Shown here: piece by piece, positions 9,635 through 49,602 of the stretch | Layout of the letters: the number at the start of each line of letters is the position of its first letter | How positions within the stretch are numbered: the stretch's first letter is position 1 | IMG/VR virus record: IMGVR_UViG_3300047299_000042 | Coordinates: 1-64,000 of that record | Length of the DNA: 64,000 bases | Strand: one strand, 5' to 3' | DNA from: a virus | The notes under the pieces: model-generated | The model's database searches: none | The model's input: only the letters and a program-made list of their open reading frames with translations | What the model was told of the DNA's origin: nothing | Made by a program: the position numbers and the translations under genes

Positions 9635-12600
9635 ATGACTAAGTTTTTAAATAATGCTGATATAAAAGGTTATATCGCCCAAACGGCTGTAACCTCATAT
9701 TTGCTAAAGGCAGACTCTACTGGTAGATTAGTTGCTGCTATAGCGGGAACGGATTATCAAGCTCCTACTACAGCATTGTTGCCATCTGGCGGAACTGCAG
9801 GTCAGATTCTTGCTAAGATTGACGGGACTAACTACAATACTCAATGGATTGATAATTATACCCCTCAAGTAAAGCACGACGTTAAATTAGGGGCTGCCTT
9901 ATCTAAGGGTACCCCTGTTTATGTTTCTAATGCCAACGGCACCAATATGATTGTTTCTGCGGCATCTAATGCTTCGGAGGCTACTTCATCTAAGACGCTT
10001 GGTTTATTGGAATCTGGAGGCGTTCTAAATGATACTGTTAAGGTAGTTACAGAAGGTTTACTTGCAGGCTTAGACACGTCAACTGCTACAGCGGGAGACC
10101 CTGTGTGGTTAGGACCTTCTGGTACGTTATTGTACGGATTAGCGAACAAGCCAGTTGCACCTGTTCATATGGTGTTTATTGGTATTGTGACGCGTGTGCA
10201 ATCTAACAATGGCGAAATCTTTGTTAAAGTACAAAACGGGTTTGAGTTAGAAGAACTACATAACGTAGCTCTTTCTTCTGTTGCAGATGGGCAAGGGTTG
10301 TTTTATGAATCAGCAACAAACCTTTGGAAGAATAAGACTATTGCAGCGGTACTTGGTTATACGCCAGCTAATGGTGCAAATTACCTTCCATTAACTGGTG
10401 GAACGCTAACAGGAGCTTTAAGCGGTACGAGTGCTACGTTTAGTGGTTTAACGGTTGATAATAATCAAAATGCTTCTACTTGGATAATTGCTAAAAATCA
10501 GAATGCTGGCTCAGGTGCTGCTGCTGGATTCTTAATGACTAATAATACTGGAGATTTGGGAGCTATTAGTTTACTTTCAAGTGGTAACTCCCCAGCAAAT
10601 GGTTTATTTATTAGAACATTAAGTACAAACTCATTAATTCTAGGAACTAATAGCACTGCAAATTTAACTATTGCAAATGGAGGAGCCACCACGTTTAGCT
10701 CTAGTGTTACGGCGACGAAATTAGCTTTAAATACTACGGTTTCTTCTAGTACATTAGAGGTTTTAGGCACAAATAGTCAATGGGCTGGAAGTTTTACGGG
10801 AAATTCTTCTGCTAGTAGTTCTTATGGTGTTGTTGTAGTAGCAGGAACTAATTCAAATGATATTGCTTTTAGAGTTAATAATGCCGCTAACTCTTCAACA
10901 TATTTTAATGTTAGAGGAGATGGCAACGTCGGCATAGGGACTACTTCGCCAGCAGGAAAATTATCTACATATGGAGGCGAAATTGGTACTCAGATTACAT
11001 TTACTAAAGATTCGCCATCTGGAGCATACGGAAGACTAGGTCAAGATTCAAATGGTACATTCTTAACTCAGAATGCTAAGTGGGATGGAACTTCTTGGAC
11101 ACGCGATAATACAGGCGGAGTTCCAATGGCTCTTGCTTTGCATAATGGTAATGGAAGATATGAGTTCAGAATAGCAGCTAATGGTGCTAATCCAATATCT
11201 TGGACTAATGCATTGGTAATTGAATCCAATGCGGCAGCTACGTTTGCGGGTAGTCTAACTGCAAATGGAACCTTTAATTTTGCTGCAACTGGAAATGTTT
11301 TATTTACGTCTAATGATGCCAATAACTACGCTAGATTTACTGGTAATTCAGCGAGTGCTCAAATAGGTTTATTCAGAGCGTCTGATGGAGGTATGTATAT
11401 TGGTGGGGCTGCTGCTGGGTTTAGAGTATTTGATTCTAGCTTTAATACAAGATTACTTTTAGCTCCAGGAGGTCAGCTGCAATTAAACACATACACCTCC
11501 GCAACATCTTACTCTGGCACCGCCGCAGGATATCTAGCATTTGATTCTTCTGGGAATGTTATAACGGTAGCAGGTGTTGCAGCAACGGATAATACTAAGT
11601 TGCCGTTAGCTGGTGGGACGATGACTGGTGCTTTAGTTGTTTCGGCTGGAGATAGAGGTTTTGAAGTAAATGCATCTGGTGGTATATCATTGTACTCTAA
11701 CGAAATTAATGCAGGTGCTCTTGGTGGTACAGGCACTATTTATTTAGGATGGAGAAGAACATCTCAAATTAATGTAGGTGTACCTATTTCTTCTAATAGT
11801 ACAATTGCCGCAATAGGAGCTATATCAACTACTGTGGCAGCTAGTGCTTGGGGATTCTTAGCTACTACATCTGGATATAGCAATGGTTCTGGTATTTGGT
11901 TTTCAACTAATGTTGGAGAGTTGTTGTTAAGAAAAGCTGATGGTACATTATCTACTAGAATATCAGCTGATGGAACAAATGCTTTTATAAATAACAATAA
12001 TATTCTTCACGCAGGTAACTATAACTCTTATTCTCCAACATTAACAGGAGGAGGAGCAAGTGGTACTTGGGGGATTAATGTTACAGGTTCTTCTCGTTCA
12101 TTATTATTTAGTGGAGACTCAGCTAAAGCATTTTTAGATGGTTTATGGGCTGGAGGAGGCTCTTATCCTGGATATCAATTCACTGGAGGGAACTCTCGAT
12201 TTGGATTTAGTTCAACAGGAGGGGTGGTTGATGTTTATGCTGATGGAAACTTTTATGCGACAGATAGTAGTCATTTAGTTTTACACGCAGGAAATTATAA
12301 CTCATATTCGCCTACATTAACTGGAGGAGGTGCTAGTGGCACTTGGGGAATAAATATTTCAGGAACTGCAACTTATGCAAATAATGCAAGTGGAGGATTT
12401 ACTAATACAGGTACACACGGTTCATCTTTTATTCAAAATGAATTACCAGCTTCCGCTAATGGAGCTGGAACAGGAAGAGTAGTTTTGAGACAATGGTGCT
12501 CTGAGCCTGGAGTTACTTGGGACTGGGCGGGCTTTGGATATAATGTATCAAATGACAATGGCTCTCCTGCTGGCTTTGGAAGATTCAATACTTCTTTCGG

Positions 12601-14668
12601 TCAAGCATATATGAGGTTCTCTACCAGTGGCGATTTGTATTTTTATAATACAACTACTGGTGGTACAAGAACTCAATCAATGTTATTATCAAGTGTAGGT
12701 AATGCTAGTTTTTCGGGAAAAATAAGTAATGGTTCAGTATGGATTAATAATGGAGTAGACAATAACTCATACAACGAAAATATCCGATTATTTGCTGCTC
12801 CTAATGGAGTATCTGTTATTGCTTTTAATGCGTCAGGAACATCAGGAACTCCATCAGGCGGCTCTATTTTAGGATTTGATGATAGGCTTGAATTTAGAAA
12901 AGGAGGAGATGCTTGGCAACTTAGAATATTTTCTGGCAATGTAGAAGCGTCTGGAAGTTTTAGAGCACCTATATTTTATGACTCAAATGATACTGGATAT
13001 TATTTAGACCCAAATGCAACAGGTACAGCATTAAGACTTGGAGGTAATATTTTCGCAAATGGTTCATTTGGAACAAATGGATATGGTTCTGGAGCTCTTG
13101 TTGGTAGAGTATTTGCCCCTAAAGGAGCCACATTCTCATTAAGTGCGTACGCAAACATCACAGGTGCTATAAAAATTAGATTACCACAACGTGCAAATGA
13201 CACAATGTGGTCTATGAAAGTTAGAATATATAATTATAATGCTTATGATACTTCTGAATACCTATTGGGCAATTATTCTTATAGTGCTGGTGCGTGGAAT
13301 TATTCAGCTACATATTTAGGAGGTACTAGCTCTGTTGGAAGAACTGTTAGATTCGGCAATGAGGGAGGGTATGACTGTGTATGGATTGGAGAGACTTCGA
13401 CTGGCTGGGTACACCCTGTGGTTTCTGTAATGGATTTTATGGGCGGCTATTCTAATGGCAGTTGCGAAAACTGGGATGATAACTGGGATATAACTATTGT
13501 CTCTGCCTTTGGAAATGTTGGGGCAGCTATTGCTCCAAACATTAATTTTAATGAAGCATATTCTTATTCATATAGAGGTAATGGAAATGTAGCGGGGACA
13601 GGTTCCGCATCTTATCATCCATCTGGCATATATAGCACAGGCACAAACTGGCTATATGGTACTATGTATTTGAATAACAACACTATATATGATGCTAACA
13701 ATATTTATAATAGTGGATGGTTTAGAAATAACAGCAACCTCCAAGGATTATATAATCAAGCTGTTAATCAACATTTTTATGCTAGTGGTACATTTTGGAA
13801 TATAACAACTAACGGAGGGAGTGATGGCGGGTTAATTATAAGAACAGACCATCAATCAACAATAAAAGGGTATCTTTTCTATAACTCAAGCGGATTTGGT
13901 TTGTTAAATAACTCAGGCGATTGGGCTATTAGAACAAATTACGGAGGTAGCAATACAGGTGGCGAGCTTTATGGAAGTTGGTCTATTAATACAGCTACAA
14001 GTGGAGCTACTTTGACATTAGGAGCCGTTGATAACTCTAGAACCTATAATGACACCCTCAGACACGGTCTTGTAATAAATGCACCATATTATCCTCATAT
14101 TGATGTAAATGCAACTGCTAATAGCGGTAACCCTACTCACGGTCCTGTTATATCAATGACTGGTGTTAAGACTGGAGGCGGATATAGAAGATGGGGCATG
14201 GGTATTGCAAATGTTGACCCAGGATATTTTTCTATTGGGTGGTATGACAATGAGGCTAATCCTCATTATGGTGTTGGTCATAGCTGGAGTTTAGGTGGAC
14301 GTTTTGTAATTGATACTGCTGGTAACATTTGGTGCACAGGAGACATTACAGCTTACGGAGCCCAATCTGATGCAAGACTTAAAATAATAAAAGGTAAAGT
14401 GCCTAATGCACTAGAAGGTATCTTAAAATTAAATGGATATCGTTTTGACTGGAAAGAAAGAGATGTAAAAATCACCACATTTGTAGAAGATATTGGAGTT
14501 GTTGCACAAGAGGTGGCAGAGGTATTCCCTGAGCTTGCCAGAGAGGGAGAAGATGGATGGATGTCTGTAAGATATCAAGGCTTAACTGCAGTGTTAATTG
14601 AGGCTGTAAAAGAACAACAAAAGCAAATAGAAGAACTTAAATCTATTATCAATGACATTACAAAGTAG
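9635..14668 (+). CDS. Long tail fibre with C-terminal S74 self-cleaving chaperone
   Basis: A 1,677-residue Gly/Ser/Asn/Thr-rich beta protein, probably the receptor-binding fibre. The C-terminal hundred residues are a peptidase S74 intramolecular chaperone: SDARLK places the expected Ser-Lys pair at S1578 and K1583, followed by the EDIGVVAQEV-type helix and a terminal coiled coil. In this family the domain trimerises the fibre and then cuts itself off. Two copies of a segment containing HAGNYNSYSPTLTGGGASG occur about 290 bp apart (12,000 and 12,287), a sign of internal duplication. The next gene overlaps its end. Confidence 0.85.
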   Translation: MTKFLNNADIKGYIAQTAVTSYLLKADSTGRLVAAIAGTDYQAPTTALLPSGGTAGQILAKIDGTNYNTQWIDNYTPQVKHDVKLGAALSKGTPVYVSNANGTNMIVSAASNASEATSSKTLGLLESGGVLNDTVKVVTEGLLAGLDTSTATAGDPVWLGPSGTLLYGLANKPVAPVHMVFIGIVTRVQSNNGEIFVKVQNGFELEELHNVALSSVADGQGLFYESATNLWKNKTIAAVLGYTPANGANYLPLTGGTLTGALSGTSATFSGLTVDNNQNASTWIIAKNQNAGSGAAAGFLMTNNTGDLGAISLLSSGNSPANGLFIRTLSTNSLILGTNSTANLTIANGGATTFSSSVTATKLALNTTVSSSTLEVLGTNSQWAGSFTGNSSASSSYGVVVVAGTNSNDIAFRVNNAANSSTYFNVRGDGNVGIGTTSPAGKLSTYGGEIGTQITFTKDSPSGAYGRLGQDSNGTFLTQNAKWDGTSWTRDNTGGVPMALALHNGNGRYEFRIAANGANPISWTNALVIESNAAATFAGSLTANGTFNFAATGNVLFTSNDANNYARFTGNSASAQIGLFRASDGGMYIGGAAAGFRVFDSSFNTRLLLAPGGQLQLNTYTSATSYSGTAAGYLAFDSSGNVITVAGVAATDNTKLPLAGGTMTGALVVSAGDRGFEVNASGGISLYSNEINAGALGGTGTIYLGWRRTSQINVGVPISSNSTIAAIGAISTTVAASAWGFLATTSGYSNGSGIWFSTNVGELLLRKADGTLSTRISADGTNAFINNNNILHAGNYNSYSPTLTGGGASGTWGINVTGSSRSLLFSGDSAKAFLDGLWAGGGSYPGYQFTGGNSRFGFSSTGGVVDVYADGNFYATDSSHLVLHAGNYNSYSPTLTGGGASGTWGINISGTATYANNASGGFTNTGTHGSSFIQNELPASANGAGTGRVVLRQWCSEPGVTWDWAGFGYNVSNDNGSPAGFGRFNTSFGQAYMRFSTSGDLYFYNTTTGGTRTQSMLLSSVGNASFSGKISNGSVWINNGVDNNSYNENIRLFAAPNGVSVIAFNASGTSGTPSGGSILGFDDRLEFRKGGDAWQLRIFSGNVEASGSFRAPIFYDSNDTGYYLDPNATGTALRLGGNIFANGSFGTNGYGSGALVGRVFAPKGATFSLSAYANITGAIKIRLPQRANDTMWSMKVRIYNYNAYDTSEYLLGNYSYSAGAWNYSATYLGGTSSVGRTVRFGNEGGYDCVWIGETSTGWVHPVVSVMDFMGGYSNGSCENWDDNWDITIVSAFGNVGAAIAPNINFNEAYSYSYRGNGNVAGTGSASYHPSGIYSTGTNWLYGTMYLNNNTIYDANNIYNSGWFRNNSNLQGLYNQAVNQHFYASGTFWNITTNGGSDGGLIIRTDHQSTIKGYLFYNSSGFGLLNNSGDWAIRTNYGGSNTGGELYGSWSINTATSGATLTLGAVDNSRTYNDTLRHGLVINAPYYPHIDVNATANSGNPTHGPVISMTGVKTGGGYRRWGMGIANVDPGYFSIGWYDNEANPHYGVGHSWSLGGRFVIDTAGNIWCTGDITAYGAQSDARLKIIKGKVPNALEGILKLNGYRFDWKERDVKITTFVEDIGVVAQEVAEVFPELAREGEDGWMSVRYQGLTAVLIEAVKEQQKQIEELKSIINDITK

Positions 14669-16434: not shown

Positions 16435-16725
16435 ATGTCATTTATCAGTTCTCTTTTTCGCGATGACAACGACATTAATGAAAAGTCTGTCTTAGGCTTT
16501 CTTTCGTTTGCGATTCTTTTCATCTACGGCATTGTAGATGTAATAACAGGTCTTGAAGGTAAAGTATTCGTTATCGAACCAATCATCTTAGAAGTATTCG
16601 CTGCGTTAACAGCAGGTTGTTTTGGTATCTCGTCTTATGAGAAAGTACAAAACCGCAAAACTGATGCTGAGCGCGAAAAGAACTTACCTGGCGGATTAGA
16701 CCCGCTTCCAGAAGATGAAGGTTAA
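16435..16725 (+). CDS. Holin-like protein
   Basis: A 96-residue protein with two hydrophobic segments (about residues 19-39 and 47-66) and a charged, hydrophilic C-terminus. Two membrane segments plus a charged tail is the class II holin layout; holins open the inner membrane so the endolysin can reach the cell wall. The endolysin is three genes downstream. No sequence-level family match is claimed. It overlaps the next gene by 11 nt. Confidence 0.5.
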   Translation: MSFISSLFRDDNDINEKSVLGFLSFAILFIYGIVDVITGLEGKVFVIEPIILEVFAALTAGCFGISSYEKVQNRKTDAEREKNLPGGLDPLPEDEG

Positions 16726-17320
16726 TATAGCCCTCTTCGTGTGTTGTATGATTGCTATCTTCTATGCTTACACAAAGCATATGGAAGCAGGAGAAGCTCG
16801 CCCTAACGACACGTTGATTGTACACGATACATCTTGGATTAAACACGACTCTATTATCGAGAAGACGAAGATTGCTTACAAAGAAGTAATCGTCAACGTG
16901 ATGTCTAAACCTGAGATGTTGCCAGATACGAACTACGAGAACCTGAAGCGTCAATATATGGCGTTACTTCAGTTGTATATGAATAAGCTGGTTTACTCAG
17001 ATACAATTAGGGTTGGCACTTACGGATACATTGCGGTATTAGATACCATTAACGAAAACAAAATAAAATACAGACGTACGCGTGATAATTTTGACATACC
17101 AGTTGTTAAGGAAACTAAAACTATCACTAAGTACGCACCACCTACCCGCAACCTATTTGTTGGAGCAGGTGTCAACGTTAACAATGCTCTTGGAATAAGG
17201 GGTGCTGAAGCGGGATTAATATTGAAAACAAAGAAAGACCAGCTGTATAACATTAAAGCGTCTGTCGATTTAGATGGTAAAGTTATGTACGGTGTTGGTT
17301 ATTATTATAAACTAAAATAA
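16715..17320 (+). CDS. Signal-anchored periplasmic protein with beta-rich C-terminus
   Basis: A 201-residue protein with an N-terminal hydrophobic anchor (about residues 4-19), a helical periplasmic middle region and a C-terminal 55 residues of alternating beta strands ending in YYYKLK. The helix-plus-anchor layout recalls spanins, which link inner and outer membranes in the last step of lysis. The terminal aromatic strand recalls outer-membrane beta proteins. Its location within the lysis genes favours an envelope role. Confidence 0.42.
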   Translation: MKVNIALFVCCMIAIFYAYTKHMEAGEARPNDTLIVHDTSWIKHDSIIEKTKIAYKEVIVNVMSKPEMLPDTNYENLKRQYMALLQLYMNKLVYSDTIRVGTYGYIAVLDTINENKIKYRRTRDNFDIPVVKETKTITKYAPPTRNLFVGAGVNVNNALGIRGAEAGLILKTKKDQLYNIKASVDLDGKVMYGVGYYYKLK

Positions 17321-17511: not shown

Positions 17512-18360
17512 ATGCTATTAAGACTAGGTTCATTTGGAGAAGACGTTACTAAGCTACAAGTTAAGCTTGGCGTAGACCCTATTGGCAAGTTTGGTCCTAA
17601 GACAGAGGCTGCAGTAAAAGGTTGGCAGTCAGCACACGGTTTAACACCTGATGGCATTGTAGGAGATGCGACGTGGGCGAAGATGTTTGCTCCAGCTATG
17701 GAAATACCTGCGCCAAATGTTATCGTCTCTCCTGCGCCAGTTGTAGCGCCTGTACTTAATCTTGAGAAGCTAAAAGGTCATATACCGCAATCTATTATTG
17801 ACCAGATTCCTGATACAGCGGCTAGATTTGGAATTACTACGCCATTAAGATTGGCGCATTTTCTTGCACAAGCGTCTCACGAGTCTGGAGGATTTAGGGC
17901 ATTCTCTGAGAACTTAAATTACAGTGCAAAAGGGCTATGCGGTATATTTAGGAAGTATTTTCCATCTGTTACTATTGCGCTGCAATACGAGCGCAAACCT
18001 GAGAAGATTGCAAACAAGGTATATGCTTCTCGTATGGGTAACGGAAACGAGGCTTCTGGAGAAGGATGGAAGTACAGAGGGCGTGGAGCATTGCAAACTA
18101 CGGGTAAATCAAACTACCAAGACTTTGCTAACTTTATGCAAATGCCTGAGATTATGAGTAACCCCGATTTAGTCGCCACTAAATACGCCCTTGCTTCAGC
18201 TGCATTCTTTTTTAAGAAAAATAGCCTATGGAGTATTTGCGACCAAGGAGCATCTGATGAAGTAGTCAAAAAGTTGACTAAACGAATCAATGGCGGGCAA
18301 ATCGGAATTTTAGATAGAATTAAACATTTTAAGGAGTTTTACCATTTATTGGTTGCATAA
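17512..18360 (+). CDS. Endolysin: peptidoglycan-binding domain plus GH19 glycosidase
   Basis: A 282-residue muralytic enzyme. Residues 1-60 form a PG_binding_1 domain (FGEDVTKLQ, FGPKTEAAVKGWQ, DGIVGDATW). A Pro-rich linker follows, then a GH19 chitinase/lysozyme-like domain from about residue 85. The catalytic Glu is expected in ASHESGGF (E124), with the family motif YRGRGALQTTGKSNY near residues 188-202. GH19 enzymes in phages cut the glycan strands of peptidoglycan at lysis. There is no signal peptide, so release should depend on a holin. The stop overlaps the start of the next gene (TAATG). Confidence 0.88.
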   Translation: MLLRLGSFGEDVTKLQVKLGVDPIGKFGPKTEAAVKGWQSAHGLTPDGIVGDATWAKMFAPAMEIPAPNVIVSPAPVVAPVLNLEKLKGHIPQSIIDQIPDTAARFGITTPLRLAHFLAQASHESGGFRAFSENLNYSAKGLCGIFRKYFPSVTIALQYERKPEKIANKVYASRMGNGNEASGEGWKYRGRGALQTTGKSNYQDFANFMQMPEIMSNPDLVATKYALASAAFFFKKNSLWSICDQGASDEVVKKLTKRINGGQIGILDRIKHFKEFYHLLVA

Positions 18361-18956
18361 TGAATCAAATAAAAGACCATTATGTTTATTGCGTTACTAA
18401 TTTAGTCAATGGAAGAAAATACATTGGCTCTCATAGTGGCAACATAGATGACAAGTATTTAGGTTCAAAGGTAGTTTTAGCTAAAGCTATTTCTAAATAT
18501 GGCTCTAATAATTTTGCTAAGCAAATACTGTGGGCAGGAGAACTTCAGTATATGAGAGAAATTGAAACTTATTGGTGCGAACAATTTGATGTAGCCAATA
18601 ACGCATTGTTTTATAACAGGACAAACAAAGGAACAGGATATCCACTAGGGGTGCCTAATCCTAAATTATCTGAGTCTCGCAAAAATATGAAGATTGTACC
18701 TTGGTGCAAAGGAGAGACCAAGGAGACAAATGAAACGGTTAGATTAATATCAGAAAAATTAAAAGGCAAACCATCTGGGATGAAAGGCAAGGTGGCGAGG
18801 AATAAAGGTATGCCAGGCACGATGTTAGGTAAAAAACACACTAAAGAAGCCTATGCAAAGCTTTTTTGGGCAAGAGAAAAAGTAGAATGCGACATATGTG
18901 GACGAATGATAGGCATTAATAATATTAAAGTCCACAAAAGAAAACAACATAGTTAA
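18360..18956 (+). CDS. GIY-YIG homing endonuclease
   Basis: A 198-residue nuclease. The N-terminus carries the GIY-YIG fold: a YVY strand at residues 8-10 and KYIGSH near 19-24, with a metal-binding Glu (REIETYWCEQF) further on. The middle contains Lys/Gly-rich segments resembling NUMOD3 DNA-binding repeats (KGKPSGMKGK). The C-terminus has a CxxC...HxxxxH zinc-finger-like element. Such free-standing nucleases spread by cutting alleles that lack them. It is inserted with overlapping stop/start codons between the endolysin and the next gene. Confidence 0.82.
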   Translation: MNQIKDHYVYCVTNLVNGRKYIGSHSGNIDDKYLGSKVVLAKAISKYGSNNFAKQILWAGELQYMREIETYWCEQFDVANNALFYNRTNKGTGYPLGVPNPKLSESRKNMKIVPWCKGETKETNETVRLISEKLKGKPSGMKGKVARNKGMPGTMLGKKHTKEAYAKLFWAREKVECDICGRMIGINNIKVHKRKQHS

Positions 18957-19083: not shown

Positions 19084-19542
19084 ATGAGACTATTGCTAAG
19101 CATATTGTTGTTTTGGTTTATGAAACCACAAGAAATAACTGTAGCATCTGTACAGAATAATGTACAGATTGGCGCTCTTGCTGGCAATAGAAACTTAGAG
19201 TTTGGTGTGAAGAATATGCTAGAGGAGTTTTTGCAAGAAGCAGGACACGATATCTCCGATGATGCACCAACTCAGATTAAGGTAGAGATTCTTTATTTAG
19301 ACGTATTGAAAACTCAGTCTAACCTATCAGTATTCCACAACAACAAGGAAGCTGTAGTTATTAGAATGAGAGGCAAATTAATACAAGATGGCAAGGTTAA
19401 GAAAACCGTTATTGTTGAAGAGCAAGCTGAAGAAGTTTCTATGGCTATGCTACTAATAGACGAAGGTGGTAAATTTAATCAAGCCTCCCTAAGTGCCGCT
19501 CTAAAAAAGTCTTGTAACACCTTAATCACTAAGCTCTTATAA
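19084..19542 (+). CDS. Exported protein, envelope cassette gene 1
   Basis: A 152-residue protein with a hydrophobic N-terminus (about residues 2-13) that reads as a signal peptide or anchor, followed by an alpha/beta domain. The domain (a helix after LEFGVKNMLEEFL, then strands with an EEQAEE segment, then a C-terminal helix) has the general look of small periplasmic subunits that accompany CsgG-like or LptE-like outer-membrane proteins; this is only an impression. It opens a run of five exported proteins. Its stop overlaps the next start (TAATG). Confidence 0.45.
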   Translation: MRLLLSILLFWFMKPQEITVASVQNNVQIGALAGNRNLEFGVKNMLEEFLQEAGHDISDDAPTQIKVEILYLDVLKTQSNLSVFHNNKEAVVIRMRGKLIQDGKVKKTVIVEEQAEEVSMAMLLIDEGGKFNQASLSAALKKSCNTLITKLL

Positions 19543-21317
19543 TGAAAAAACTCCTCCTAATTGTCCAGTTTTTTGCTCTATTAACTGGACATTCTTACGC
19601 TCAGACAGTCAAACTAAGTTTGCAAAACGCAAACACTAATACCAACATTAACGGGAATGTAATTAACAAGGGAGACGAGTTCCTTGTAACCGTTATGGCG
19701 GATGGCAATGGTAACACATCTACCCGTTCATTATACTTTGACTTTGAATACCAGAACACCGCATTTCAATTAATGACTGTTAACCACACAGGCACAGGCG
19801 GGAACGGAGGTATTATACCTTATGGCTCACAAATCTCAATGAGCTATCAAGACTACCCAGGATATAGCTACAACAAGACGTCGCTAAACACTACTGATAA
19901 CGGTAACACTAACTACAATAACTGTCAGTACACCTATACGCAAGGTGGACCTAAGTCAATCTTACGCGTATATCTTAACTGGTCTATTGCATCTGGAGGA
20001 TTAGGTAAGGATAGATTATTAGTATTAAAGTTCAAGTTAAAGACAGACGCTCCTGGATACGCTTGGAATCCTATTGCAATGAACTTTGCGGCAGCGTTTA
20101 ATCAGAATGGTACTGCAGGTTCTACGTTGATGACAACGCCTCTTACAAGCGTTATTATGCTAGACCCTACTGCTACTAAGTACGTTAATCCAACGATTGA
20201 TTACAACGCAAATGTGGACGCTTTATCGCTTCATCGTATTGCCTTTACAGACAGTGCTGCTAACACAACTTACTTAGTGGACGCATTATCTGATGGAACG
20301 ATTCCTGTTGACCAAACACGATTCAAGCCTAACACCGTTTACCACGTTAGAACCTTGTTTAATATGGACTCTGTAAAGGATTTATCTACTGCAGCGGTAA
20401 CTGTATCCGACTACACAACTGCTCAAGCAGAGTTTGTTACGCAGAACCTAGATGGTACATTTAGAAATCAAAACATCATTACAGGAGCGGGGTATTATGC
20501 AGCAGACGTGAACTACAATAAGAAGTTGGATGGAGGAGACTTAGTGCGTTTGTATGCGCAGGTAACAGGCGTAGAGAACTTAGTTACACTTCCTGCTAAC
20601 TATGCTGCTGGCACAGATATGTATATGAGTGTGCCTACGTTCACAGACTCTACATTCAACAAAATGACAGTAGCTAACTGGAAAGATGTAGACAAGAACT
20701 ATGTTAGATTTAAGACAGCAGAGATTGGTAAGAACCTACCGCTAAAGCTCAAATTCGTTATTCCAGGAGACATTAACAGGAGCCATAGCTCTCAGGTTGT
20801 AATAAATAATTCTATCGCAACTAATGCTGTGCCTAGTGTTGCGAAGTCAATGGCTAAGACTCAGACAGCCAATCTATTAATCAACACGCCTCAATTTATT
20901 CCAGCTATTGATGTCACAATTCTTGGAAAAACTGTGACAACTAACAGCTTTGAGATACCTGTTAAAGTAAATACTGGAGCAAGCAATGTTGCGGCACTAC
21001 AATTTGAGTTCGTTTATGACCCAACAAAAGTTAAATTTGTAGAGCTGTTTAATGAGCTACCTAATACTTGGCATACCTTTGTTGATAATAAGGCTGGACG
21101 CGTAAGATTTGGTGCTTTAGACAAAGAGCTAAAGAACCCAGTGACAGGAGAATTAACTCCGTTTAAGCTGAAGTTTGAGACAATAGGTAATGGTGCCGAC
21201 ATTAATACAGTGATTCGCGTATCTCCTAATATGGATGCAGCGTCTAAGACAGGTTACCAACTAGGCATTAACTTAAACCTAGAGACCATAAAACTAACGG
21301 GTATAAATAACTTTTAG
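19542..21317 (+). CDS. Secreted protein with cohesin-like and dockerin-like segments
   Basis: A 591-residue exported protein. The signal peptide ends around residue 21 (HSYAQ). Residues about 25-190 and 455-590 each show the cohesin-like pattern: a GDEFLVTV or EIPVKV strand, then a strand ending in FEYQNTAF or FVYDPTKVKF. Between them, DVNYNKKLDGGD (residues 322-333) fits the calcium-binding loop of dockerins and EF-hands (D1, N3, N5, D9, D12). In cellulosomes, cohesin and dockerin bind each other; here the pairing could mediate self-assembly or surface attachment. This is unusual for a phage. The domain calls come from pattern only. Confidence 0.55.
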   Translation: MKKLLLIVQFFALLTGHSYAQTVKLSLQNANTNTNINGNVINKGDEFLVTVMADGNGNTSTRSLYFDFEYQNTAFQLMTVNHTGTGGNGGIIPYGSQISMSYQDYPGYSYNKTSLNTTDNGNTNYNNCQYTYTQGGPKSILRVYLNWSIASGGLGKDRLLVLKFKLKTDAPGYAWNPIAMNFAAAFNQNGTAGSTLMTTPLTSVIMLDPTATKYVNPTIDYNANVDALSLHRIAFTDSAANTTYLVDALSDGTIPVDQTRFKPNTVYHVRTLFNMDSVKDLSTAAVTVSDYTTAQAEFVTQNLDGTFRNQNIITGAGYYAADVNYNKKLDGGDLVRLYAQVTGVENLVTLPANYAAGTDMYMSVPTFTDSTFNKMTVANWKDVDKNYVRFKTAEIGKNLPLKLKFVIPGDINRSHSSQVVINNSIATNAVPSVAKSMAKTQTANLLINTPQFIPAIDVTILGKTVTTNSFEIPVKVNTGASNVAALQFEFVYDPTKVKFVELFNELPNTWHTFVDNKAGRVRFGALDKELKNPVTGELTPFKLKFETIGNGADINTVIRVSPNMDAASKTGYQLGINLNLETIKLTGINNF

Positions 21318-21318
21318 A

Positions 21319-21672
21319 ATGAAAAGGATACTTGCATTTTTGTTGATAGTGAGCTTGGCAGCTTGTCAGGACATTGAAACATTAGAGAAAGAAACTAGCC
21401 TAGGGGTGGCTCCTAGCGCAACAGATATTACTAGCTTGGTAGTAGATGGCAAGCAGGCGACTATTGTAGCAAACACAGTAGTTGGCGCTAAGTACTCTGT
21501 TCAGATATACAAGTTTGGAAAAACCGAACCATTTAAGACAGTTGGTTTTACAGCAACATCTGTAGCCACAATAAAGTGTATCCAGTTGGATACAATCTCT
21601 CGTGGGTTATATGACCTTACATTAACAGATGTTTCGGGAGTAACAATTAAAAAACCTTTAATCATTAATTAA
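21319..21672 (+). CDS. Lipoprotein, envelope cassette gene 3
   Basis: A 117-residue protein with a clear lipobox, SLAAC, giving a lipidated Cys near residue 16. The residues after the Cys (QDIETLEKE) are acidic, loosely like the lipoprotein export signal that sends Bacteroidota lipoproteins to the cell surface. The mature part is a small beta domain. It is 1 nt after the cohesin-like gene and 1 nt before the next, so the group is co-translated. Confidence 0.62.
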   Translation: MKRILAFLLIVSLAACQDIETLEKETSLGVAPSATDITSLVVDGKQATIVANTVVGAKYSVQIYKFGKTEPFKTVGFTATSVATIKCIQLDTISRGLYDLTLTDVSGVTIKKPLIIN

Positions 21673-21673
21673 A

Positions 21674-21979
21674 ATGGCAGAAGAACAAGAAGGCGGAGGC
21701 TCATTAAAGAGCATCCTTATCGGATTAGCAAGTACTATCGCGCTAGGTGTAGGTGGATTTGTAACAAAACAATTAACAGGCGAAGAGGAAGCTGCTCAAC
21801 CAGCGGCTGCTGTATCGGCTCCAGCTCCAGTTATTAACATTACAACTAATAACACACAGCAACAAAAGCAAGCAGCATCAGCTGGCGGCACAAGAGTTGT
21901 TGAGCGGGTTGTAGAAAAACCAGCGGCACCTAAGAAGAAGACAGAAAAAGAAGAGTTAGAGGAGGCACCAAAGTGGTAA
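21674..21979 (+). CDS. Small membrane protein with Ala/Pro/Lys tail
   Basis: A 101-residue protein with one hydrophobic, Gly-rich segment (about residues 13-31) and a long, low-complexity tail of Ala, Pro, Gln, Val and charged residues, probably extended. It might act as an inner-membrane partner reaching into the periplasm. It sits in the exported-protein cassette. Not recognised. Confidence 0.45.
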   Translation: MAEEQEGGGSLKSILIGLASTIALGVGGFVTKQLTGEEEAAQPAAAVSAPAPVINITTNNTQQQKQAASAGGTRVVERVVEKPAAPKKKTEKEELEEAPKW

Positions 21980-21991
21980 TATCCCAACATT

Positions 21992-22009
21992 AGTGTGATA
22001 TATTGCACT
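21992..22009. promoter_or_regulatory. Palindromic operator candidate 1
   Basis: AGTGT-GATATATT-GCACT is an 18-bp palindrome (one mismatch), 99 bp before the GIY-YIG/XRE start. It shares arms and 8-bp spacing with the site at 22073-22090. Confidence 0.5.
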
Positions 22010-22072
22010 CAATGATGCAAAAAGCCAACTTTGCTGAAAAATAGAGACCTATTAATTTGATAATCTGACATA

Positions 22073-22090
22073 AGTGCTATATATTGCACT
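22073..22090. promoter_or_regulatory. Palindromic operator candidate 2
   Basis: AGTGC-TATATATT-GCACT is a perfect-armed 18-bp palindrome, 18 bp before the ATG at 22108. An operator here would let the encoded XRE domain repress its own gene. Confidence 0.55.
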
Positions 22091-22107
22091 ATATAATAAA
22101 GCAAATA

Positions 22108-22683
22108 ATGGCAGACTTTTTAATATATGGTCTCAGATGCCCAGAGACTGGATTTTATAAGTACATTGGCAAGAGCTCTAATGGATTATCTAGACCTAAA
22201 TCGCATTTAACATTATCGCATAATCATTCTATTAGGTTATGGGTAGAAGAACTTAGAGATAAAGGATTATGTCCATTGATTGATATTATAGAGGAATGTG
22301 ATTCAGTTCAGTTACTTGAAAGAGAAAAGTATTGGATAAGCTATTACCACAATTCAGTATATCCATTAATGAATATTATAGAATACAAGGGTATAAATAT
22401 TGAAAAACTTAGAGAAGAACTAAAAGCAGAGGAGCAAATTTTAATGCATAAAATTAATGCGGTAAAAGAGGACATTGAGAATCTATCTAATATTTATAAA
22501 TTTATTAAAACAATTAGAAAGAAAAGAGGCGTCACACAAGAACTTCTTGCCAGTCTTTCAGGTGTTGGCTTAAGGACAATTAAGCAAATTGAAACTGGTA
22601 AATCTAATCCTACATTTAAGACACTAGAAAATGCATTAGATGTATTAGGGTACAAATTGGTTCCTATTTTAAAAAATAGCTAG
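22108..22683 (+). CDS. GIY-YIG endonuclease fused to an XRE-type HTH domain
   Basis: A 191-residue protein. The GIY-YIG part is at the N-terminus: LIYGLRC and KYIGKS, a conserved Arg/Lys-His stretch and a metal-binding Glu in LLEREKYWI. A coiled-coil-like linker follows. The last about 65 residues are an XRE/lambda-repressor HTH (KRGVTQELLASLSGVG, TIKQIETGKSNPT). The ATG at 22108 was chosen over a TTG 24 nt upstream because it begins the GIY strand and follows an A-rich leader. The HTH may target the nuclease or repress its own gene through the two upstream palindromes. It interrupts the envelope cassette. Confidence 0.8.
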   Translation: MADFLIYGLRCPETGFYKYIGKSSNGLSRPKSHLTLSHNHSIRLWVEELRDKGLCPLIDIIEECDSVQLLEREKYWISYYHNSVYPLMNIIEYKGINIEKLREELKAEEQILMHKINAVKEDIENLSNIYKFIKTIRKKRGVTQELLASLSGVGLRTIKQIETGKSNPTFKTLENALDVLGYKLVPILKNS

Positions 22684-22737
22684 CGCATCATTAGGCATAC
22701 AATAGTGCACATTTGAGGCGTTTTATTGTGCATAATT

Positions 22738-22840
22738 CCGAATTAGTGTTACTTATTTGCCAAAATCTGTAACAAAATGTTGCCAAATTCGGAAGTTGGT
22801 AAAAACCCAAACCGTAAAACTTGTAAACTGTGCAAGTTTT
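22738..22840 (+). other. Structured intergenic DNA with nested hairpins
   Basis: CCGAATT (22738-22744) pairs with AATTCGG (22786-22792), enclosing a GTTAC/GTAAC stem and two TTGCCAAA copies. A second perfect hairpin, AAAACTTG/CAAGTTTT (22816-22840), resembles a weak terminator. The stretch 22684-22871 has no gene. Confidence 0.4.
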
Positions 22841-22871
22841 GATAATAGGGTTTGCATTACTAATATAAACT

Positions 22872-23576
22872 ATGAAGAAGATATTACTCCTATTACTATG
22901 CTCACTAGGAGCAACAGCACAAGTAGCCTCTGTTAAGACAGAAGCTTACACAGCCTCATTTGAAAAGAAGATTAATATCGATTCATTGATGGACTATGAA
23001 GGTCCAAAGATTCCTATTCAGCTATTATCTTTAGGCATTAATGAAGACGTCTATGCGGCGTATCCTGAGCTTAAAGACAAGCGTGTGGGGCTTGGAGTTA
23101 CCAACATTGTTATTGAGTTCCTAGAGGAAACTAACCGTTTTACGTTTACTGAGGATAAAGCGGAAATTAAGAACAGAATGGTAAAGCAGTTCCAAGCCTC
23201 ACAGGCTGGTATCTCAGAAAACAAACTAGATGGCAGAGGCAAGATTAAGCTTGCTCAGTACTTTGTTTACATTGAATGCTACGACTTCTCAATTAGCGAA
23301 GACGAGTCTATTTCTATTAAAGGCGACACAAAACAAACTGTAGTCACACGACTAGGTTTACAGGTAAAATTCGTCAATGCGGAGACTGGAGAGTTCTTTA
23401 CAGGCTCAGGGTTAGGAGAAGCTAAAACAACACGCGAAGCTACCTTAATGAATGACGGAAACTTTGCAGAGGTTAAGTTCAATCAGTCTACTATCGGTAC
23501 GACAACTAAGAAAGCATTAGAGAATGCTGCGGCTAAGATTATCGTTCGAATGATTAAGAAGAAGATATTCAAGTGA
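22872..23576 (+). CDS. CsgG-like outer-membrane secretion protein
   Basis: A 234-residue exported protein with a signal peptide ending near residue 17 (GATAQ). The mature part follows the CsgG-family order: VTNIVIEFLEETNRFTF, a basic helix, a segment that places an ENKLDGRGKIKLAQYFVYIEC strand, then LGLQVKFVNAETGEFFTGSG and a C-terminal helix with repeated Ala/Lys. CsgG forms a pore for curli export; CsgG-like genes are known in a few marine phages. No lipobox Cys is present, unlike classical CsgG. Its neighbours are also exported. Confidence 0.6.
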   Translation: MKKILLLLLCSLGATAQVASVKTEAYTASFEKKINIDSLMDYEGPKIPIQLLSLGINEDVYAAYPELKDKRVGLGVTNIVIEFLEETNRFTFTEDKAEIKNRMVKQFQASQAGISENKLDGRGKIKLAQYFVYIECYDFSISEDESISIKGDTKQTVVTRLGLQVKFVNAETGEFFTGSGLGEAKTTREATLMNDGNFAEVKFNQSTIGTTTKKALENAAAKIIVRMIKKKIFK

Positions 23577-24859
23577 AATGGTTATGGCTCTTAATCCTTA
23601 TTCTGACATTCTTTGGAGTTAAAGGTCAGGTATTAACGCAGACATTCGTAGACCCTTGTTCTGGCAAAGTAACTGTTGTCACAGTACCACTTGCCAATGG
23701 AAAAACCACAATAGTTTATAGAGGACAATACAGAGTAGTAACGGCAAACGATATTACTTCAGGTGCATTACAAGCCTGGATTAACGACTTAACAGTCAAC
23801 TTCCCTTGCCCGCAAGCTACCGTTGCCGTACAACAAACTGTATCTAACGCCGTATCACAAGCCGTAGCGGCAGCAACAAGTGCGGCAACAGCAACTGCTA
23901 CAGCAGCTGCAACTTCGGCAGCTACATCTGCGGCAACATCAGCTGCCTCCTCAGCAGCATCAGGAGCAGCATCTTCAGCAGCAAGTAGTGCAGCAGCATC
24001 AACACCAGCTCCTAGTAGCACACCTTCATCAAGCAGTTCAAGTAGTTCATCTCAAGGCGAGAGTAGCTCTCCTAAAACGGAAGCTAAATCAGAAACGAAG
24101 TCAGAGTCTAAGAGCGAGCCTAAAAGCGAAGAGAAGTCTGAATCTAAATCAGAGTCGAAAAATGAAAGCAAGAAAGAATCTAAATCAGAAAAGAAAAGCG
24201 AAACCAAGAAATCGAACGCTGTGGCGAATCCGATTATATATAGCTCGGACTTTACAGTCGCTCCATCAAGTGATGTTGTTTCTATTATCGCAAGCGTAGG
24301 GATGAGTCAAAGCTCACTAATGGGCAACTCCTCTTGGGGCATATCTTCTATGATATGGTCTACGTTCGACCAGTTTGCTCTATCAGGCAGATACACCTTA
24401 ATAAACTTTGAGTCAGGTAAGATGCAGTCTATCTCCAACTTTGGTATCACAGGCGTTTATTTAGGCGGTACAACGCTTGGATTTGTTACTGCTGCACATA
24501 TTCAACCTTTGGGTAAATACGGTGTCTCAGGAGCCAACTATACGCTTAGTGTTGCTGGCGCAGATGCGGGTCTCAACATCAGCAATAACATAATGTTGTT
24601 CTATACTATTCCTGTTAAGGTTAGTAAGAGGGTTACGGTGTCGCCAGATGTTTATCTATCAGGAAGCTCTACGGGGTATTTAACTGCCCAGCAGAAGTTT
24701 GTAACGTCGGATGATATTGGCATACTTACAGGCGCATCATTTGATATTGCTCTAACTAAGCGCTTTAAGTTCAACTTCGCTTTAAAGACTGGATTCAACA
24801 CTAATCCAATTATTCCGCAAAGTTATTTGGGTATGATTGGGACAAAGATAAATTTATAG
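23573..24859 (+). CDS. Secreted protein with Ala/Ser and Lys/Ser/Glu repeats and a beta-barrel-like C-terminus
   Basis: A 428-residue exported protein overlapping the CsgG-like gene by 4 nt. The signal peptide runs to about residue 19. A short N-terminal domain has paired cysteines. Residues about 85-160 are almost only Ala, Ser and Thr; residues about 160-215 are short KSES/KSEK repeats. The last about 200 residues are alternating aromatic and small residues typical of outer-membrane beta-barrels (final strand ending GTKINL). The translational coupling suggests it works with the CsgG-like protein. The repeats could span the periplasm or the cell wall. Confidence 0.5.
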   Translation: MKWLWLLILILTFFGVKGQVLTQTFVDPCSGKVTVVTVPLANGKTTIVYRGQYRVVTANDITSGALQAWINDLTVNFPCPQATVAVQQTVSNAVSQAVAAATSAATATATAAATSAATSAATSAASSAASGAASSAASSAAASTPAPSSTPSSSSSSSSSQGESSSPKTEAKSETKSESKSEPKSEEKSESKSESKNESKKESKSEKKSETKKSNAVANPIIYSSDFTVAPSSDVVSIIASVGMSQSSLMGNSSWGISSMIWSTFDQFALSGRYTLINFESGKMQSISNFGITGVYLGGTTLGFVTAAHIQPLGKYGVSGANYTLSVAGADAGLNISNNIMLFYTIPVKVSKRVTVSPDVYLSGSSTGYLTAQQKFVTSDDIGILTGASFDIALTKRFKFNFALKTGFNTNPIIPQSYLGMIGTKINL

Positions 24860-49098: not shown

Positions 49099-49108
49099 TT
49101 GTTTGGTT
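49099..49108 (-). promoter_or_regulatory. AACCAAACAA leader fused to a tRNA 3' end
   Basis: Exact leader copy. Its first base is the last A of the ACCA of tRNA-like RNA A, and it lies 8 nt before the ATG at 49090. Confidence 0.55.
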
Positions 49109-49182
49109 GGTAGTCAGGACAGGATTCGAACCTGTATCTACTCCGTATTCTTCATATGCGTCTACCATTCCGCCACCTGACT
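49108..49182 (-). tRNA. tRNA-like RNA A, 75 nt with encoded ACCA
   Basis: Acceptor AGTCAGG/CCTGACT (7 bp) followed by ACCA; T arm ACAGG-TTCGAAT-CCTGT; D arm GCGG-AATGGTAG-ACGC of the Leu type. The 22 nt between D and T arms do not form a clean 5-bp anticodon stem; the best fold has one mismatch, so no anticodon is assigned. RNA C has the same body with a different, compensating acceptor stem. Confidence 0.68.
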
Positions 49183-49405: not shown

Positions 49406-49531
49406 AAATTTGAATAGCTTAGGTACTATTCGCGAGGCGTTTCCTACTGTTGCGCCAACCACCGTTCAGGATGTATGCACCATCTAACGGTTCTCATCAG
49501 TTCTCTGTGCATAGCATAGATGAGAGTCTGA
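49406..49531 (-). ncRNA. Structured spacer between tRNA-like RNAs B and C
   Basis: Stems TCTCATC/GATGAGA, CCGTT/AACGG (with an inner GATG/CATC) and GGCG/CGCC are visible on the minus strand. No gene fits. Confidence 0.38.
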
Positions 49532-49602
49532 AATAGGGACAGGATTCGAACCTGTATCTACTCCGTATCCTTCATATGCGTCTACCATTCCGCCACCCTA
49601 TT
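49532..49602 (-). tRNA. tRNA-like RNA C, paralogue of A
   Basis: Acceptor AATAGGG/CCCTATT; D and T arms identical to RNA A; one base change in the central region. The acceptor differs from that of A on both strands of the stem, so pairing is conserved. No CCA is encoded. It is the first RNA after the cluster promoter. Confidence 0.62.

Follow-up and report, generated by a model that had tools for sequence, protein, structure and literature searches.

Pelagiphages carry csgG/csgF/csgA-B clusters for type VIII secretion (curli) (PMC7029224, PMC9599517), and a role in lysis has been proposed for CsgGF of methylophage Melnitz (PMC9004378). Here we describe a cassette of genes, named LIP, COH, LPP, TM, CSG and BAR, in the IMG/VR virus record IMGVR_UViG_3300047299_000042; the window, i.e. 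the whole stretch of DNA analysed (positions 1 to 64,000), is nearly all of this 64,940-base viral record. Like the curli clusters of pelagiphages and Melnitz, the cassette is a multi-gene envelope cassette that includes a protein with a predicted CsgG fold, is common to podophages and myophages and is absent from the host. The curli clusters, however, encode a true CsgG with CsgF (in pelagiphages also CsgA/B, FecR, HK and AC), whereas the cassette encodes a predicted 12-strand barrel, a cargo of the cohesin/type IX secretion system (T9SS) tail kind, a second CsgG-like protein and an inner-membrane protein. We see about an even chance that the cassette specifies a trans-envelope assembly, specific to phages, by which COH is presented on the surface of the infected flavobacterial cell, and that it usually occurs alongside lysis genes.

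Taken as a whole, the set has no counterpart among the described systems that we could find; the novelty lies in the module, as the single folds are known. No cassette protein had a Pfam match to CsgF, CsgE or curlin repeats, and no sequence link of CSG to pelagiphage CsgG was detected: among 50,697 phage records the sole CSG match was in the cultured Flavobacterium phage immuto, where the protein is annotated as hypothetical. The parts tested matched no functionally named PHROG family and fitted no PADLOC model, and a published description of the gene set was not found in the open-licence literature.

The genes of the cassette form a conserved module of phages and are not a loose neighbourhood. 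Relatives of CSG were found in IMG/VR, 106 at the first pass and on more than 500 environmental viral stretches with an alignment search. The units counted are contigs of IMG/VR, which include many fragments and some near-duplicates; they were reduced to distinct loci where so stated. Where CSG is flanked by 6.5 kb or more on either side, in 66 distinct loci spanning 15 CSG clusters, COH, TM, CSG, BAR and LIP were present together without exception; other parts were a small holin-like protein, HOL (inside or adjoining the cassette in 58 loci), an endolysin (55), LPP (41) and SPA, a protein spanin-like by position (linked in 38). An independent scan started from LIP gave CSG and BAR in 51 of the 52 loci with enough downstream sequence, and COH, TM and endolysin in all 52. 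Phage immuto, which has a genome of 160 kb that includes a tail-sheath gene and is grown on Flavobacterium sp. LMO8 as its laboratory host, carries the same five parts: gp015 (COH), gp016 (TM), gp017 (CSG), gp018 (BAR) and gp019 (LIP). The original prediction had made its reading depend on these genes occurring together in related phages; they do, and in unrelated phages as well.

The window virus is a crAss-like podophage: the PHROG matches of its terminase, portal and structural proteins are to the corresponding families. Among sequenced isolates, relatives of its portal are found in phages of Flavobacteriia (Flavobacterium, Cellulophaga, Maribacter, Tenacibaculum). A crAss-type portal was detected in 16 of the 46 virus records tested, and sheath genes in five others. 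Sheath-bearing rows in the CSG tree are those of relatives L055 and L080 and of immuto only; the genome of relative L084 was searched for a sheath with no match. CSG of the sheath phage L055 falls within a supported clade (99/94) of crAss-like CSGs. Given this nesting, and the presence of the module both with crAss-type portals and with sheath genes, the module crosses phage lineages, being carried by crAss-like podophages and by contractile-tail phages. A host origin of CSG was rejected: 297 Bacteroidota genomes contained no CSG relative except on one phage contig, and none was found in plasmids.

Some variation of the gene set was observed among relatives. In relative L043, CSG (L043:8001-8705) is 78% identical to the window CSG while its cassette neighbours are 87-93% identical, a sign of recombination inside the cassette. 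Several lineages have, between TM and CSG, a membrane protein of 185-195 aa (motif GF..LL..MM.RRW.ITA.VL) that is not in the window and has no family match (L012:7393-7971, L061:6947-7504, L056:7351-7938). Several lineages also have a second exported protein after BAR or LIP, in some cases with dockerin-like loops (L079:11910-13574, L080:10329-11399, L084:12284-13513, L075:10192-11295, L056:9933-11072); it is possibly a second cargo.

Of all the parts, CSG shows the highest conservation (71% mean column identity in the alignment). Structure models were made for CSG and BAR, both of moderate confidence. For the AlphaFold2 model of CSG (predicted local distance difference test, pLDDT, 68.7; predicted template modelling score, pTM, 0.61), a Foldseek comparison with the PDB gave CsgG for each of the 22 best matches (E 2.8e-7 to 5.6e-6, probability 1.0), followed by a FlgT-type ring protein, HpaA, GNA1162, PelC and LptE. 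The CsgG-like fold of the original prediction is therefore supported by the model, and the likeness counts at the fold level only, given a template modelling (TM) score of about 0.4 and a pLDDT of 68.7. Structure comparison alone found CsgG; it was missed when CSG was searched as a single sequence or as a profile against Pfam and the PDB, and a profile-profile comparison with true CsgGs was weak (E 0.006), with the register correct.

The same prediction had gone further and called the protein a pore, and this we consider doubtful for a pore of the CsgG type. None of 24 members of the CSG family matched Pfam CsgG (PF03783) at E<=1. Unlike CsgG, CSG has no lipobox (signal peptide only in the window, and none seen in aligned relatives), and its hairpins are reduced and charged: hairpin 1 has 20 residues, 30-40% of them charged, versus 25 residues and 8-16% in E. 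coli and Bacteroidota CsgGs, and hairpin 2 has 28-30 aa versus 32-37 aa. The same-fold proteins PelC, LptE, HpaA and GNA1162 are not known to be CsgG-type pores.

LIP is, by its profile matches, a second CsgG/YajG-like protein, distantly similar to the CsgG-fold proteins listed above. Its profile matches that of the CSG family with E 1.6e-4. The window LIP matches Pfam Lipoprotein_16 below the cut-off (E 7e-4, 19.7 versus 25 bits), and weak but recurring matches to this YajG-type family were found in 11 of 20 LIP family members (best 9.2e-5). TraT is an outer-membrane surface exclusion lipoprotein; weak profile matches connect it with LIP (E 0.014, in 3 of 20 relatives only), while the window LIP lacks a lipobox.

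The N domain of BAR has two invariant cysteines (29 and 79) and is followed by a long helix and an S/A/E/K-rich linker. In the BAR model (pLDDT 65.7) the C terminus forms a 12-strand beta-barrel, in agreement with the barrel-like protein expected earlier; BAR would be an outer-membrane barrel, and the loops predicted to lie outside are more variable than the periplasmic turns. The best PDB match of the model is FapF, the functional-amyloid exporter of Pseudomonas (E 3.8e-7), with which BAR shares the predicted 12-strand barrel and N-terminal periplasmic extension. However, BAR has no sequence similarity to FapF and is accompanied by no other Fap parts, and other 12-14-strand barrels (NanC, KdgM, OmpG) match nearly as well. 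Profile matches of BAR in the PDB and NCBIfam were rejected as artefacts of the low-complexity linker.

The cohesin/dockerin-like partner of the original prediction was recovered in COH. The window COH matches Pfam Cohesin (PF00963) with 25.1 bits, above the cut-off of 24.1; its N domain gives a profile match to its C domain (E 2.6e-4), and a dockerin-like calcium-loop motif lies in the middle. Cohesin matches were found in 14 of 26 proteins occupying the COH slot; domains found in this slot in other phages are C-type lectin (Lectin_C), LamG, PA14 and GEVED. A diversity-generating retroelement serving the lectin slot was looked for, and no reverse transcriptase was found in 10 records.

A T9SS sorting tail is present on 10 of the 26 COH-slot proteins (best 1.9e-11), with TIGR04183 above the cut-off in L080 and in immuto gp015. 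The window COH has no such tail, and the window LPP has no direct library match to one. When profiles were compared, LPP matched the T9SS tail with E 2.2e-6 versus 0.04-0.4 for unrelated controls; these E-values, like those of the LIP-started scan and of the count that follows, are relative to small search sets. Of 93 distinct loci, 63 encode LPP and lack a fused tail, and 26 lack LPP and carry the tail as part of another exported protein. The two never occur together, and four loci have neither; four raw entries with both proved to be LPP itself being matched. In three of the four loci with neither, two other small lipoproteins occupy the same place. The small lipoprotein LPP looks like a T9SS tail on its own lipid anchor. 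Compared with T9SS cargo (TIGR04183/PF18962), COH of many relatives ends in a sorting domain in the usual way, whereas in the window the domain seems to sit on the separate lipoprotein; we know of no described T9SS cargo with this arrangement.

The residues after the LPP cysteine are acidic in 88% of sequences at +3 and in 76% at +5, a stretch that recalls the surface-export signal of Bacteroidota lipoproteins (SDDFE in F. johnsoniae; PMC5080379). We also considered LPP and TM as an ordinary o-/i-spanin pair and dropped this candidate: LPP resembles a T9SS tail and is missing in 25 of the 66 loci, which argues against an essential o-spanin.

Export signals in the window were largely as the original prediction had listed them. 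COH, CSG and BAR have N-terminal signal peptides, LPP has a strict lipobox (residues 13-16) and TM has the single N-terminal membrane segment attributed to it. The exception is LIP: the window copy begins with a short, weak leader (1.6 is exceeded in no 19-residue stretch), while leaders or anchors are clear in its relatives.

We propose that TM sits in the inner membrane, while CSG and LIP, as proteins of the CsgG/YajG type, may form periplasmic rings or scaffolds. The BAR barrel would lie in the outer membrane, with the N domain and long linker reaching back into the periplasm. COH would be the surface cargo, placed outside together with LPP. The latter would take the place of the tail that is part of COH in other phages, and its probable role is to anchor or route COH. 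The gene set with its conservation, the alternation of LPP and fused tail and, for the models, the likeness of folds are observations. The subunit contacts, the layers, the surface location of COH in the window phage and late timing are what we infer in this arrangement. Lectin_C, LamG and PA14 in the COH slot are domains of the kind that would be expected if binding domains are displayed, and surface display of binding domains would suggest a change of adhesion or of receptors, with exclusion of other phages or with progeny kept off debris. The most likely use, which we rate at slightly under an even chance, would be to alter the surface of the doomed cell and so prevent the binding of other phages or of progeny of the phage itself.

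A more specific version is advanced tentatively, as a possibility that we do not think probable. Lytic phages of flavobacteria would here have a display machine of their own that uses or imitates the host T9SS, with a T9SS-type tail that is part of the cargo or sits apart on a phage lipoprotein. It would place a two-cohesin or lectin protein on the infected cell by way of a ring with the CsgG fold, a protein of the YajG kind and a 12-strand barrel, closing the cell to other phages or hiding debris from progeny. The original prediction contained neither the T9SS tail on COH of relatives nor the tail-like body of LPP, nor LIP as a second CsgG-like protein.

Several points weigh against the proposed display assembly. 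Both structure models, of CSG and of BAR, have moderate confidence scores, as given above. Because the window COH lacks a T9SS tail, the case for its surface location depends on the argument from LPP and on the relatives. The motif of LPP that resembles a lipoprotein export signal (LES) is similar to the published consensus and not identical to it. A function in lysis would also account for the repeated linkage to endolysin and holin genes. An endolysin of the same family lies within ~5 kb of the cassette in 12 of the 15 CSG clusters, with five or more arrangements represented; together with the frequency of HOL and the lysis role proposed for the methylophage CsgGF, this would speak for a cassette that extends the holin-endolysin-spanin set and breaches the outer membrane at lysis, with CSG and BAR acting in place of, or beside, classical spanins. 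We nevertheless regard this explanation as rather unlikely. In immuto, the lysis pair (HOL beside an endolysin homologue) is ~30 kb from the cassette, which adjoins replication genes, so that the linkage is not obligatory; membrane disruption offers no evident role for the lectin domains and T9SS tails of COH, and several arrangements already hold a spanin-like gene. The endolysin linkage points to late expression and leaves a role in lysis possible.

A secretion system for curli-like or other functional amyloid, in which CSG and/or BAR would export COH or an amyloid and aggregate cells ('sibling capture') as in the type VIII clusters of pelagiphages, would agree with the best structural matches of the two models (CsgG and FapF) and with the existence of such clusters. 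We consider it improbable, as the Pfam searches gave no CsgG, CsgF or curlin match for cassette proteins, CSG has no lipobox, its hairpins are short and charged, and it has no sequence link to pelagiphage CsgG. Still less credible is a virion or adsorption apparatus, with the exported proteins ending in or on the particle. The window cassette does lie between fibre genes and ring/tail genes. However, tailed phages assemble in the cytoplasm, while the cassette parts carry export signals, which makes plain virion components, the outcome that would have told against the original prediction, unlikely; in immuto, moreover, a long distance separates the cassette from the sheath gene, located at 148 kb.

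All the cassette open reading frames (ORFs) named in the original prediction are present on the plus strand (Table 1).

Table 1. Genes of the cassette and its surroundings in the window
Feature	Positions	Strand	Description
HOL	16435..16725	+	small, two membrane segments, holin-like
SPA	16715..17320	+	N-terminal membrane anchor and periplasmic region; spanin-like by position
Endolysin	17512..18360	+	peptidoglycan-binding and GH19-like
GIY-YIG-type ORF (by sequence)	18360..18956	+	between endolysin and LIP; outside the module
LIP	19084..19542	+	exported, 152 aa, YajG/Lipoprotein_16- and CsgG-like; no lipobox in window
COH	19542..21317	+	exported, 591 aa; cohesin-like N domain, dockerin-like calcium loop (residues 322-333), cohesin C domain; no T9SS tail in window
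LPP	21319..21672	+	117-aa lipoprotein, LAAC lipobox, acidic after Cys; body like T9SS C-terminal sorting domain
TM	21674..21979	+	101 aa, single-pass inner-membrane; Pro/Ala-rich tail; conserved VINI.NNNTQQQ-like stretch
GIY-YIG + HTH ORF	22084..22683	+	between TM and CSG; Pfam HTH_3 1.2e-12, GIY-YIG 1.8e-4; homing type, outside the module
CSG	22872..23576	+	exported, 234 aa, predicted CsgG fold; most conserved part
BAR	23573..24859	+	exported, 428 aa, GTG start; N domain, linker, predicted C-terminal barrel (221-427)

The tight packing described earlier holds inside two blocks: LIP and COH share one base, COH and LPP as well as LPP and TM are 1 nt apart, and CSG and BAR overlap by 4 nt. It does not hold between TM and CSG, which are separated by 892 nt with the GIY-YIG + HTH ORF. 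Nor does the cassette directly follow the endolysin as had been stated, because the GIY-YIG-type ORF and a 127-nt gap intervene. Neither homing insertion had been recognized in the original prediction. The ORF between TM and CSG was found among relatives only in L001 and L010, and no homologue of the ORF between endolysin and LIP was found in 80 relatives. Most relatives lack both insertions, and many have the endolysin before LIP and TM and CSG overlapping (-6 nt); the form without insertions is therefore probably ancestral.

Elsewhere in the window, two tRNA-Phe genes, both with anticodon GAA, are located on the minus strand at 49108-49182 and 49530-49602, ~350 bases apart. A fibre protein of 1677 aa is encoded at 9635-14668; its end resembles an intramolecular chaperone (S74-type) domain.

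Type IX-like display by a phage, if true, would give a direct handle on envelope remodelling by Bacteroidota phages. The exchange between LPP and the fused tail makes a clear, testable prediction on how type IX tails work, and as phage immuto is cultured, the question can be answered at the bench.

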